Shown here in pieces: positions 56,472 to 60,936 of a stretch of 64,000 nucleotides of DNA. The notes below the pieces were generated by a model, which did no database searches, had not been told where the DNA came from, and saw only the letters and a list, made by a program, of their open reading frames with translations. Both the position numbers and the translations under genes were made by a program. Source of the DNA: Candidatus Zixiibacteriota bacterium (GTDB lineage Bacteria; Zixibacteria; MSB-5A5; GN15; FEB-12); contig JAOUBJ010000006.1 in NCBI GenBank assembly GCA_029860345.1, positions 62,001 to 126,000 on the forward strand, written 5' to 3'. The number at the start of each line of letters is the position of its first letter. Position 1 is the first letter of the stretch.

Positions 56472-57827
56472 ATGCCTTACGTACCGAACAGTGACGACGA
56501 CCGTCGCACCATGCTCAAAGAGATCGGCGTCGACCGCATCGAAGAGTTACTCACCGATATTCCAGCCAAGCTGCGGCTGAATCGCCCCCTCGACATCCCG
56601 GCCGCCTCCGAACTGGAACTGCTCAACCAGATCCATACAATGGCCGCTCAGAAGGTCACCACGTTGGCCTGTTTTGCAGGCGGCGGGGTGTATGATCACT
56701 TTATACCCTCAGCGGTTGCCACAATCATTTCGCGGCCGGAGTTCATGACGGCCTACACTCCCTATCAGCCCGAAGTAGCCCAGGGCACGTTGCAGGTCAT
56801 GTATGAATTCCAGACACACATTTGTCGATTGACCGGGATGGATGTGGCCAATGGTTCCATGTACGACGGCGCCACGGCCGCCGCCGAAGCTGCCGCCATG
56901 GCCTGCCGGGCGACACGTCGAAATCGGGTAGTGGTTTCGGAAACAGTCAACCCCCTGTATCGCCAGGTGCTTCAGACCTATCTATCGGGACGCGATACGC
57001 AATTGGTAACAGCGCCCATGGCGTCCGGCCTCACCGACACAGACAGACTGGCCGAGATAGTTGACGACGAGACTGCTTGCGTAATAGTCGGGCAGCCGAA
57101 CTTCTTCGGCCGGCTTGAAGACCTGACCGGCATGGCTGAAACCGTTCACACCGTCGGCGGAAAACTGGTGGCATGCGTCGATCCAATCGCCCAGGCAATC
57201 CTGAAAACCCCGGCCGATTGCGGCGCCGATATCGTCGTCGGCGAGGGGCAACCACTGGGCATACCAATGTCGTTCGGCGGACCGCTGCTCGGATTCTTTG
57301 CCACCCGCAAAGAGCTGATCAGGTCGCTACCGGGCAGAGTAGTTGCGCGCACGACCGATGTCGATGGACGGGACGGGTTCGTGCTGACCCTGCAAACAAG
57401 AGAGCAACACATACGACGAGAAAAAGCAACCTCCAATATCTGCACCAACCAGGCGTTGTGTGCCGCAGCCGCTGCCGTATACATGTCATTGCTGGGCAAG
57501 TCCGGGCTCAAGCAGGCGGCCCTGCTGTCGGCCGAGAGAGCTCAGACGGTAGCGCAACGTTTGGCTGAATTGGACGGATTCGAGCTATGGTTCGATGGAC
57601 CTTTCGTGCGCGAAGTTGCCATCAAGACGCCGCTACCGGCCGCACGGATAATCCAGGAGTTGGTCACGCGAAATATCCTGCCGGGAATCGATGCCGGTCG
57701 ATGGTATCCGGGTATGGAAAACTGTTTGATTCTTGCCACTACCGAAAAACGCACCGAACCGGAGATTGATCGCCTGGTCAGTGAAATGGGAAAGCTCGCC
57801 TCAAGTCATGTTGTGTCCCGAATGTAA
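56472..57827 (+). CDS. gcvPA: Glycine dehydrogenase (decarboxylating) subunit 1
   Basis: 451 residues, the N-terminal half of the two-subunit P protein. Typical parts: MPYVPNSDDDRRTMLKEIGV, FAGGGVYDHFIPSAVATIISRPEF, YTPYQPEVAQGTLQVMYEFQTHICRLTGMDVANGSMYDGATA, and GEGQPLGIPMSFGGPLLGFFATR. The PLP lysine is on the other subunit. The last 20 bases overlap the start of the next gene, so translation is coupled. gcvT and lpd are not in the window. Confidence 0.95.
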   Translation: MPYVPNSDDDRRTMLKEIGVDRIEELLTDIPAKLRLNRPLDIPAASELELLNQIHTMAAQKVTTLACFAGGGVYDHFIPSAVATIISRPEFMTAYTPYQPEVAQGTLQVMYEFQTHICRLTGMDVANGSMYDGATAAAEAAAMACRATRRNRVVVSETVNPLYRQVLQTYLSGRDTQLVTAPMASGLTDTDRLAEIVDDETACVIVGQPNFFGRLEDLTGMAETVHTVGGKLVACVDPIAQAILKTPADCGADIVVGEGQPLGIPMSFGGPLLGFFATRKELIRSLPGRVVARTTDVDGRDGFVLTLQTREQHIRREKATSNICTNQALCAAAAAVYMSLLGKSGLKQAALLSAERAQTVAQRLAELDGFELWFDGPFVREVAIKTPLPAARIIQELVTRNILPGIDAGRWYPGMENCLILATTEKRTEPEIDRLVSEMGKLASSHVVSRM

Positions 57828-58155
57828 AGTAGAGATTGCGGACGGCCAGGTGAATTGCTCAATCTGCGGCTGGGAACATGCCAAAGAGACGGAGCAGGAG
57901 TGGGTGGTACTGGGTACCATTGAAGATCGCCCCTTTGCCGATCTCGCTCGCGAGACGTTGAAGTCATTGGATATCCCGGCCGTTGTCGTCTCCCGCGCAG
58001 GTTTTTTTGGGAACATTGGTTTGCCGCTCAATTCTGTTTTCGATGGCGGTAAACTTGGCGTCTTCGAGATTTCGGTGCCGCAGTCATTCGTCAGGGAAGC
58101 AGCCGACACCCTGGACATGACGCTCGGCGACAAATGGCGAAGGGAAGGTGTCTAA
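57808..58155 (+). CDS. Zinc-ribbon DUF2007-like protein (first of two)
   Basis: 115 residues from ATG 57808, within the end of gcvPA. An N-terminal zinc ribbon, CPECKVEIADGQVNCSICGWEH, is followed by a DUF2007-like domain (WVVLGTIEDRPFADLARETLKSLDIPAVVVSR, then FEISVPQSFVREAADTLD). The family is called a putative signal-transducing domain, without experimental role. It stops 1 base before the next GTG; in this cluster it lies between gcvPA and the thioredoxin-like gene. Confidence 0.7.
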   Translation: MLCPECKVEIADGQVNCSICGWEHAKETEQEWVVLGTIEDRPFADLARETLKSLDIPAVVVSRAGFFGNIGLPLNSVFDGGKLGVFEISVPQSFVREAADTLDMTLGDKWRREGV

Positions 58156-58542
58156 GTGCCGTTTTGCCCCAAGTGCAAATATGTGTTTCAGAACGGTATC
58201 GGAATCTGCCCGGACTGTGACGAACCGCTGGTGGAACATTCGCTCACCGGTAAAGGCGCGGCAATGATGCCCGACGACAGTTGGATGGTGGTCGGAGGAG
58301 TTGTCAATCACGACCAAACACGGGTGGCAAAAGGCTCGCTCGACTCATCCAATATCCCGTCGATGGTACTGCCTTCGAAGTTCGCCGTCTTCGGAACCGA
58401 AAACCCACAACCGCCCATTGATCCTAACGGCCCGGATGATGGAAGCCTGATTATGGTGCCACGGGAGTTTCACGATGAAGCCCTGGCCATTCTCGAAGCG
58501 GTTCTGGGGGATGAACTGTACGGCGAGCAAGCTGATGAATAA
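58156..58542 (+). CDS. Zinc-ribbon DUF2007-like protein (second of two)
   Basis: 128 residues from GTG 58156, immediately after the previous stop. It begins with a ribbon (FCPKCKYVFQNGIGICPDCDEPL) and ends with the same fold as its neighbour (SWMVVGGVVNHDQTRVAKGSLDSSNIPSMVLP, then SLIMVPREFHDEALAILEAV). The pair is probably an old tandem duplication. No ribosome site of its own beyond the upstream gene end, so translation depends on the first gene. Confidence 0.68.
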   Translation: MPFCPKCKYVFQNGIGICPDCDEPLVEHSLTGKGAAMMPDDSWMVVGGVVNHDQTRVAKGSLDSSNIPSMVLPSKFAVFGTENPQPPIDPNGPDDGSLIMVPREFHDEALAILEAVLGDELYGEQADE

Positions 58543-58570
58543 ACGACACTTGATATAACAAGGAGTTATT

Positions 58571-59452
58571 ATGCGACATGTTTCCATCGTCTTGCTTCTG
58601 ACGGCTCTGATAATAATGGCGGTCGCCTGCGGTCAACAGGAGGTTGAGACCACCAATGTTATGTCTTCGCCAACTGTTTACTCCAGCATAGAAGAAGCCA
58701 AAGCGGCGGTGGGCGAGTCCGGCCGACCGATTGTCGTCGATTTCTATACCGAGTGGTGACCGGGCTGCAAGATGATCGACACGGTCGTGTTGAGAGATTC
58801 TGCTGCTATTAAGTTCTTTAATAATGAAATGGCTTTCGTGAGAATAAACGCCGAAGAGGATACTATCCTTGCCCAGGAGTACCGCATCTCCGGTTACCCC
58901 ACTATCGTGATGCTGGGTGCCGACGGTAAGGAAGTTGATCGGCTGATCGGCTATATCCCCCCGGTACCGTTTGTCCAGAAGTTTCGTGATTACGCTAACG
59001 GGATCGGTACGCTTGAGGACCTGCTGAATCGGGCCGCCGCCAAAACCGACCGTGCGCTTTTCATGGAGATTGGCATGAAGTATAAGTATCGGGGCGGCAC
59101 CGAGGATGCCACCTACTGGTACACCCGGGCGCTTGAGGAAGGGGATGCACTCGACAGCTTGTCGGGTGAGTGCCGGATCGCCCTGGCCGACATGCACCGG
59201 CGCGCCAAAAACTACGACAAGGCGCTGGCCGACTATGCTCAAATCACAGCGGACTTCGGTGACCTGCCCGCCGGTACCGACGCCGAGATATGGACAGCCA
59301 TCATATATCGAAAAACGGGTGACACAGCCAAGGCGGTGGCCCAGTTCGAAGCATTCATAGAGAACCACCCAAATCATGGTGATGCCGAATACTGCAGGCA
59401 ACAGATCGTGAAATTGACGACACCGGCTGAGGAGGATGATCAGTCACACTAA
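58571..59452 (+). CDS. Selenocysteine-containing thioredoxin-like lipoprotein with C-terminal TPR-like part
   Basis: 293 residues if the in-frame TGA at 58757-58759 is read as selenocysteine (residue 63). AGGAG precedes the ATG. The signal peptide VSIVLLLTALIIMAVAC is a lipobox (Cys20), so it is membrane-anchored and exported. The thioredoxin fold reads VVDFYTEW-U-PGCKMID at the active site, where thioredoxins have WC-G-P-C; here the motif is U-P-G-C. The cis-proline segment SGYPTIVMLGADGKEVDRLIGY is intact. Residues about 150-290 look like helical repeats (YWYTRALEEGD, YDKALADYAQITADF, AVAQFEAFIENHP). The frame continues 230 codons past the TGA, and other genes here use TGA as stop, so this is recoding, not a pseudogene. 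Probably a periplasmic thiol-disulphide or selenol redox protein. Confidence 0.85.
58757..58793 (+). promoter_or_regulatory. Candidate bacterial SECIS element after the in-frame UGA
   Basis: The stem 58776-58782/58787-58793 (UCGACAC pairs with GUGUUGA, one G-U pair) closes the tetraloop GGUC at 58783-58786. The loop begins 23 nt after the UGA. Bacterial SECIS hairpins bound by SelB lie within the coding region just after UGA and have a GGUC-type apical loop, as in E. coli fdhF. Only a fold by eye; energy not computed. Confidence 0.7.
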
Positions 59453-59484: not shown

Positions 59485-60936
59485 ATGAAACATCGAACTC
59501 TGATATATGAGAAGTCCGCTCCCGGACGCAAAGGCTACACACTTCCCAGGTGTCAAAAAAGCGAAACCGATATCCTCGCCGCTATCCCGGCTGAGTTACG
59601 ACGTGGCGACGATGCCGCGTTACCTGAAGTAACCGAGGGTGAGGCCATGCGTCACTTTGTCGAACTTTCGATCAAGAATCATCATATCGACAAAGGGTTC
59701 TATCCGCTGGGGTCCTGCACGATGAAGTACAACCCCAAGCTAAACGATGCGGCGGCATCAATGCCCGGTTTTGCCAACCATCACCCCCTCTCTCCCTGCA
59801 GTACCGCGCCGGGAATCCTGCATCTCATGTGGGACTTAGCCGCCTGTCTCTCGGAGATTTCAGGGCTGCCCTCAATGTCCTTGCAACCGGTAGCCGGTGC
59901 CCACGGTGAGTTTGCCGGGCTGCTCGTCATGCGAGAGTATCACAAGGGTAAGGGTGAACAACGGCATCGGATTATCATACCCGATTCTGCGCATGGTACC
60001 AACCCGGCCTCGGTCACCACGGTCGGCTACACGGCGCTGCCCATAGCGTCCAACGAACAGGGCGTGGTGTCACCCGAAGCGGTGGCCGAAGTGATGGATG
60101 AAACAGTGGCCGGAATGATGCTGACCAACCCCAACACGCTGGGGATTTTCGAAAAGCATGTTGAACAAATCGCCGAGATCGTACACGCCAAAGGTGGCCT
60201 GATGTACATGGACGGCGCCAACTTGAATGCCAACATGGGTATCTTCCGACCCGGCGATGTCGGTTTTGACCTCATGCATTTCAACCTGCACAAAACCTTC
60301 TCCACACCGCATGGTGGCGGCGGGCCCGGCGCCGGCGCTCTGGGCGCCACGGCGGAGCTTGACCGATTCCAGCCGCTGCCGGTGTTGGACAAGGACAAAG
60401 ACGGCGGCCTGTTTTTCAACTATGACCGACCGGACTCTATCGGTCGCTTACACAGTTTCTACGGAAATTTCGGCAACATGGTGCGGGCCTACGCATACAT
60501 CCGCACCCTGGGCGGTGAAGGACTCAAGCGGGTCAGCGAAGTGGCCGTGCTCAACGCCAACTATCTCAAAGCACTCTTGCGCGATGACTTCGAGATTCCA
60601 TTCGATGGACCCTGCATGCATGAGTTTGTCGCCTCGGGCAGCCGTCAGAAAAAGCTGGGCGTGCGGACGCACGATATGTCAAAACGTATGCTCGATTTCG
60701 GCATTCATTCCCCCACCAATTACTTCCCGCTGATCGTGCCCGAAGCACTCATGATCGAACCGACCGAAACCGAGAGCAAAGAGACGCTTGATGAGTTTGC
60801 TCGCATCATGAAACAGATCGCGCGCGAAGTCCAGGAGAATCCCGACCTGGTCAAAACCGCGCCGCACGATACTCCTGTCCGTCGTCTTGACGAAGTACAC
60901 GCCGCCCGCACCTTGGATGTGTGCTATAAGGGGTGA
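59485..60936 (+). CDS. gcvPB: Glycine dehydrogenase (decarboxylating) subunit 2
   Basis: 483 residues, the C-terminal half of the split P protein, carrying PLP. Opening region YEKSAPGRKGYTLP, then KGFYPLGSCTMKYNPKLND, and the PLP-lysine segment MHFNLHKTFSTPHGGGGPGAG. Other segments: PDSAHGTNPASVTTVGY, DGANLNANMG, and KRMLDFGIHSPTNYFPLIVPEALMIEPTETESKETLDEF. It decarboxylates glycine together with GcvPA and passes the aminomethyl group to GcvH. It lies 32 bases after the selenoprotein gene; its leader has no clear ribosome site. Confidence 0.95.
   Translation: MKHRTLIYEKSAPGRKGYTLPRCQKSETDILAAIPAELRRGDDAALPEVTEGEAMRHFVELSIKNHHIDKGFYPLGSCTMKYNPKLNDAAASMPGFANHHPLSPCSTAPGILHLMWDLAACLSEISGLPSMSLQPVAGAHGEFAGLLVMREYHKGKGEQRHRIIIPDSAHGTNPASVTTVGYTALPIASNEQGVVSPEAVAEVMDETVAGMMLTNPNTLGIFEKHVEQIAEIVHAKGGLMYMDGANLNANMGIFRPGDVGFDLMHFNLHKTFSTPHGGGGPGAGALGATAELDRFQPLPVLDKDKDGGLFFNYDRPDSIGRLHSFYGNFGNMVRAYAYIRTLGGEGLKRVSEVAVLNANYLKALLRDDFEIPFDGPCMHEFVASGSRQKKLGVRTHDMSKRMLDFGIHSPTNYFPLIVPEALMIEPTETESKETLDEFARIMKQIAREVQENPDLVKTAPHDTPVRRLDEVHAARTLDVCYKG

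Follow-up and report, generated by a model that had tools for sequence, protein, structure and literature searches.

Is the TGA codon within a thioredoxin gene of a Candidatus Zixiibacteriota genome a stop, or is it read as selenocysteine (Sec), and what would the resulting protein do among the genes of glycine cleavage? We analyzed a window of 64,000 nucleotides, to which all positions refer and which lies on contig 6 of a 4.76 Mb genome (99.3% complete). The gene, here called Trx-TPR, starts at ATG 58571 and carries TGA as codon 63, in the motif EW-TGA-PGCK. A first-pass annotation had placed this TGA where the first catalytic cysteine of thioredoxin would stand, in a frame that continues past it, and we find the same: Pfam recognizes a thioredoxin and a TPR domain, the TGA at 58757-58759 is codon 63, and the frame is open until TAA at 59450-59452. 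The gene order that it gave (gcvPA, two small CxxC proteins, Trx-TPR, gcvPB) also holds. The features of the locus are:

56472-57827, + strand: gcvPA, glycine decarboxylase P-protein subunit 1 (PF02347, 4.8e-125)
57760-58155, + strand: small protein with an N-terminal CxxC pair, zinc-ribbon-like, start approximate (Zn_ribbon_3, 0.0022, below the curated cut-off)
58156-58542, + strand: second small protein with CxxC pairs (open reading frame without a Pfam match)
58560-58565, + strand: Shine-Dalgarno-like AAGGAG (from the sequence)
58571-59452, + strand: Trx-TPR gene, 293 aa, probably exported, with Sec63
58571-58630, + strand: signal sequence with a possible lipobox AVA-C at Cys20 (from the sequence and the N-termini of homologues)
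58676-58987, + strand: thioredoxin domain, residues 36-139, with U63-P-G-C66 and with Y109-P110 at the cis-Pro place (PF00085, 2.3e-14)
58757-58759, + strand: TGA codon as Sec63 (alignment column and Sec/Cys switches on the tree)
58776-58793, + strand: bSECIS hairpin TCGACAC-GGTC-GTGTTGA, apical loop GGUC at 58783-58786, 23 nt after the UGA
59012-59425, + strand: C-terminal TPR helical domain, residues 148-285 (TPR_6, 7e-9; all-helical in the model)
59485-60936, + strand: gcvPB, glycine decarboxylase P-protein subunit 2 (PF21478, 5.9e-25)

The AlphaFold model of the Trx-TPR protein is confident (pLDDT 93.2), and by structure comparison its domains match thioredoxin/DsbD-gamma folds and TPR/BamD folds. 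The protein thus combines the thioredoxin fold, the C/U-X-X-C motif and the cis-proline by which thioredoxin-fold oxidoreductases are defined, and the invariant columns of the family alignment are C63 (with Sec shown as C), C66 and P110. A shorter open reading frame of 226 aa starts at ATG 58772, a few codons past the TGA, and lacks both the signal sequence and the first beta strand.

To place codon 63 in its family, we searched 133 Ca. Zixiibacteriota genomes, found homologues in 121 of them and extracted 127 gene copies with TGA read through. Codon 63 could be scored in 125 copies (the other two were left out because of Ns or because they were cut off): it is TGA in 68, Cys in 54 and Ser in three. 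Each of the 68 TGA copies contains exactly one internal TGA, always in the codon-63 column, a pattern well outside what chance would produce, so that an in-frame UGA aligns with Cys in homologues, as is characteristic of bacterial selenoproteins. On a family tree built with this column masked, Sec and Cys have switched at least 19 times. The U/C-X-X-C motif is retained in 118 of the 125 scored copies; the three with Ser at position 63 read S-X-X-S (G010 and G118) or S-X-X-C (G115), and four further copies keep Cys63 and have Ser66. These Ser variants suggest that redox activity is not essential everywhere in the family. Downstream of the TGA, dN/dS was about 0.05-0.15 in four pairs whose dS is at or past 1; in one of the comparisons (G000 against G044), it was about 0.1 (0.23/2.2) with dS near saturation.

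These data bear on the rival readings that the TGA truly ends translation, that it arose by sequencing error or that it signals a different genetic code, with the frame behind it being a remnant or a separate gene. Gene calling could indeed yield the 226-aa frame from ATG 58772, but that frame would do without the signal sequence and first beta strand of the fold. The same TGA column recurs in 68 copies with Cys in 54, selection acts on both sides of the TGA, and the covariation and Sec machinery described below add to this. A misread TGC or TGT, which the first-pass annotation had named as a possible flaw, does not account for a TGA shared by 68 genomes. The homologues do not end at this codon. 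They read through it and alternate between Sec and Cys. The neighbours gcvH and gcvPB and the two following open reading frames end in normal TGA stops, as had been said of other genes in the window, which argues against a recoded genetic code. We therefore give these readings a very small chance and regard them as ruled out by the family alignment; even a misread base in this one strain would leave the result for the family intact.

Published limits for bacterial SECIS elements are a loop of 3-9 nt with G in its first two places, a stem of 4-16 bp, a distance of 16-37 nt from the UGA and an energy of -7.5 or below (PMC13188914). The hairpin in the window fits these limits with its GGUC loop, its 7 bp and its spacing of 23 nt; the fold of 58757-58805 has an energy of -12.5 kcal/mol, and the bare 7-bp hairpin by itself -7.0. 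For the window gene alone, the hairpin was no stronger than expected from synonymous reshuffling (p=0.175), and single-sequence shuffles were not significant either (z from -0.2 to -1.0), so the case for a SECIS is made at the level of the family. There, the mean best hairpin energy is -5.85 in Sec copies versus -1.89 in Cys copies (p=7e-11, uncorrected for kinship). Among the 32 Sec copies that belong to the window gene's own family, all seven stem pairs form without exception, and we counted 10 double-change cells, a number reached by none of 500 shuffles. Codons 71 (ACG) and 72 (GTC) are invariant in all 32 of these genes, while each of 73 other conserved codons varies among them (mean 1.43 bits). 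Moreover, codon 69 ends in G in the 22 copies where residue 74 is Phe (TTC) and in C in the 10 where it is Leu (TTG); in this coupling, the protein residue tracks the RNA pair.

Several Cys copies retain the hairpin (e.g. G054, with TGT, beside its Sec sister G053), which reads as a relic of Sec-to-Cys loss. Under a simple rule, the hairpin is absent from nine Sec copies of divergent families. Hairpins with a G in the loop also occur in SelD and in most Sec relatives from Neomarinimicrobiota and Aminicenantes. SECIS_1 (RF00031) matched neither the genome nor any control; we take this model to be eukaryotic and hence uninformative for a bacterial genome.

The first-pass annotation had pointed to the sel genes as a check. 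The genome encodes the complete machinery that goes with bacterial selenoproteins (SelA, SelB, SelD and tRNA-Sec): the SelA and SelB genes adjoin, and the tRNA-Sec scores 69.4 bits and has the anticodon TCA according to ARAGORN. The genome's own SelD carries an in-frame TGA in its catalytic site CAGUASK (L147, 1941-2867), followed 20 nt downstream by a GUU-loop hairpin, which independently indicates that this organism reads UGA as Sec. By hand count, SelA or tRNA-Sec was found in 64 of the 68 genomes with a Sec form; searches for both were negative in the other four. Three of these, G069, G095 and G098, are drafts of 79-94% completeness; the fourth, G128 (L143), is listed as 100% complete and contains a Sec-form copy. 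Taken together, the alternation at codon 63 (68 TGA, 54 Cys) and the SECIS covariation across the family turn what had been annotated as a probable selenoprotein into a strongly supported one, with the UGA at codon 63 read as Sec on these comparative grounds.

Where would such a protein work? A hydrophobic export segment is present in 118 of 120 usable N-termini of homologues, and a lipobox-like motif in 46 of the 120. Export of the Trx-TPR protein is therefore likely, and some members of the family may be anchored to lipid; of the lipoprotein that had been annotated, the predicted export applies to nearly all members and the lipobox to fewer than half. DsbD is the usual electron carrier to periplasmic thioredoxin-like proteins, and this genome encodes a full-length DsbD. 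The explanation that we consider very probable from the sequences is that Sec63 is inserted through SelB and SECIS into an exported Trx-TPR protein that would act as a periplasmic thiol-disulfide reductase or oxidoreductase. By the comparative evidence, SelB and tRNA-Sec decode the UGA at codon 63 under the direction of the downstream hairpin; the product is exported, in some members with a lipid anchor, and joins a thioredoxin fold that has Sec-X-X-Cys as its active site to a TPR tail. Its selenolate would attack disulfides of client proteins, Cys66 would resolve the mixed bond, the TPR domain may hold clients or partners, and electrons could come from the DsbD of the genome. If the gene forms one operon with gcvPA and gcvPB, its dose would be tied to glycine cleavage. 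A point against this explanation is that it is hard to see what a protein outside the cytosol would do for glycine decarboxylase, a cytosolic enzyme.

The main rival to the periplasmic reductase model is an exported chaperedoxin similar to CnoX, in which the TPR domain holds unfolded or oxidised clients, Sec or Cys forms a protective mixed bond and catalysis of reduction is secondary. CnoX (YbbN) chaperedoxins likewise have an N-terminal thioredoxin domain followed by TPR, and E. coli YbbN/CnoX (3qou) is the PDB entry that best matches the two domains together, but the full-length rmsd is 22 A, so that domain order is shared and packing differs. Members of both groups have lost an active-site residue: E. 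coli CnoX has SXXC in place of CXXC (PMC8129009), and the Trx-TPR family includes the three copies without the first nucleophile and the four that keep the first Cys and have Ser for Cys66. However, U/C-X-X-C persists in nearly all scored copies, and CnoX lacks Sec, is cytosolic without an export signal and passes its clients to GroEL, whereas the Trx-TPR family has hydrophobic N-termini almost throughout. We regard a holdase role as possible but unlikely, about one chance in several.

We compared the protein with other known families. The C-terminal (gamma) domain of DsbD, also periplasmic and thioredoxin-like, is among its best sequence and fold matches; unlike DsbD, the Trx-TPR protein has no transmembrane electron conduit. 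The best NCBIfam match of the thioredoxin part is the TsoB rhodanese/DsbD fusion-like selenoprotein (NF045694, 2.8e-17), which we rejected because its 62 bits fall far short of the cut-off (805), the match is confined to the final 137 of 572 positions and the architecture differs. The Trx7/PDZ (seleno)protein (NF041199) shares a Sec-containing thioredoxin-like fold and was rejected as well (18.9 bits where 300 are required, with CxxU and PDZ in place of UxxC and TPR), and no NCBIfam model comes near its cut-off. Among the 119 prokaryotic selenoprotein families inventoried in 2026 are UxxC thioredoxins (PF00085) and thiol:disulfide interchange proteins (PF13098) (PMC13188914). These share UxxC in a thioredoxin fold and Sec/Cys alternation with Trx-TPR but are domain and motif entries without a TPR tail or a link to gcv genes, and no Trx-TPR lipoprotein is among the 119 families. 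A literature search that covered few subscription papers found no comparable Zixibacteria selenoprotein. The domain arrangement, annotated as new, is not entirely so, given CnoX/YbbN, and what is new is the exported Sec form. Sec-containing relatives outside the phylum (L176-L182 and L243) are Trx-TPR proteins with longer TPR tails in Neomarinimicrobiota and, in Aminicenantes, a fragment of a related thioredoxin lipoprotein with Sec (L180); Cys-form Trx-TPR relatives occur in records titled Calditrichaeota and Bacteroidetes (L199 and L175).

Within the phylum, gcvPA and/or gcvPB adjoin the Trx-TPR gene and share its strand in 119 of the 127 copies and in nearly all families, usually in the order gcvH, gcvPA, small Cys-motif genes, Trx-TPR and gcvPB, which indicates that the link is old and conserved. 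The eight copies without it are paralogues or stand-alone copies and all are Sec forms. The stand-alone Sec copies lie on L143, L145, L139, L137, L144, L102, L118 and L121, and in six genomes (G010, G126, G127, G128, G130 and G131) a stand-alone Sec copy is accompanied by a gcv-linked one with Cys or Ser in place of Sec. One or both of the small CxxC proteins (57760-58542 in the window) occur in many, though not all, relatives; PHROGs and NCBIfam gave no name for either, and the second has a weak, sub-threshold match to zinc ribbon (seleno)protein DG.

This neighbourhood might suggest that the protein takes part directly in glycine cleavage, for instance by regulating the P-protein or the lipoyl H-protein or by serving as redox partner to either. 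Such a role accords with the conserved adjacency, whose only exceptions are the paralogous and stand-alone Sec forms, but sits poorly with the nearly universal export segment and with the relatives in Neomarinimicrobiota and Aminicenantes, which have no gcv genes in the flanks examined; we consider it improbable. More speculative still, and with little expectation that it is right, the UGA between gcvPA and gcvPB could act as a selenium-sensitive valve, with the exported protein reporting the periplasmic redox state to glycine metabolism. If that were true, failed Sec insertion would stop the ribosome at codon 63, polarity would lower gcvPB, and glycine cleavage would follow the supply of selenium and redox equivalents.

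On the reading of a Sec-containing exported oxidoreductase, the Trx-TPR proteins would constitute a new selenoprotein family with UxxC, which is phylum-wide and also present in Neomarinimicrobiota and Aminicenantes, and whose genes ordinary gene calling would truncate. With its many Sec/Cys switches, its SECIS covariation and the relics in Cys genes, the family offers a natural data set for the evolution of selenocysteine. Lastly, its phylum-wide placement with the gcv genes, mostly between gcvPA and gcvPB, raises the question of whether glycine metabolism in these bacteria may be under redox control.
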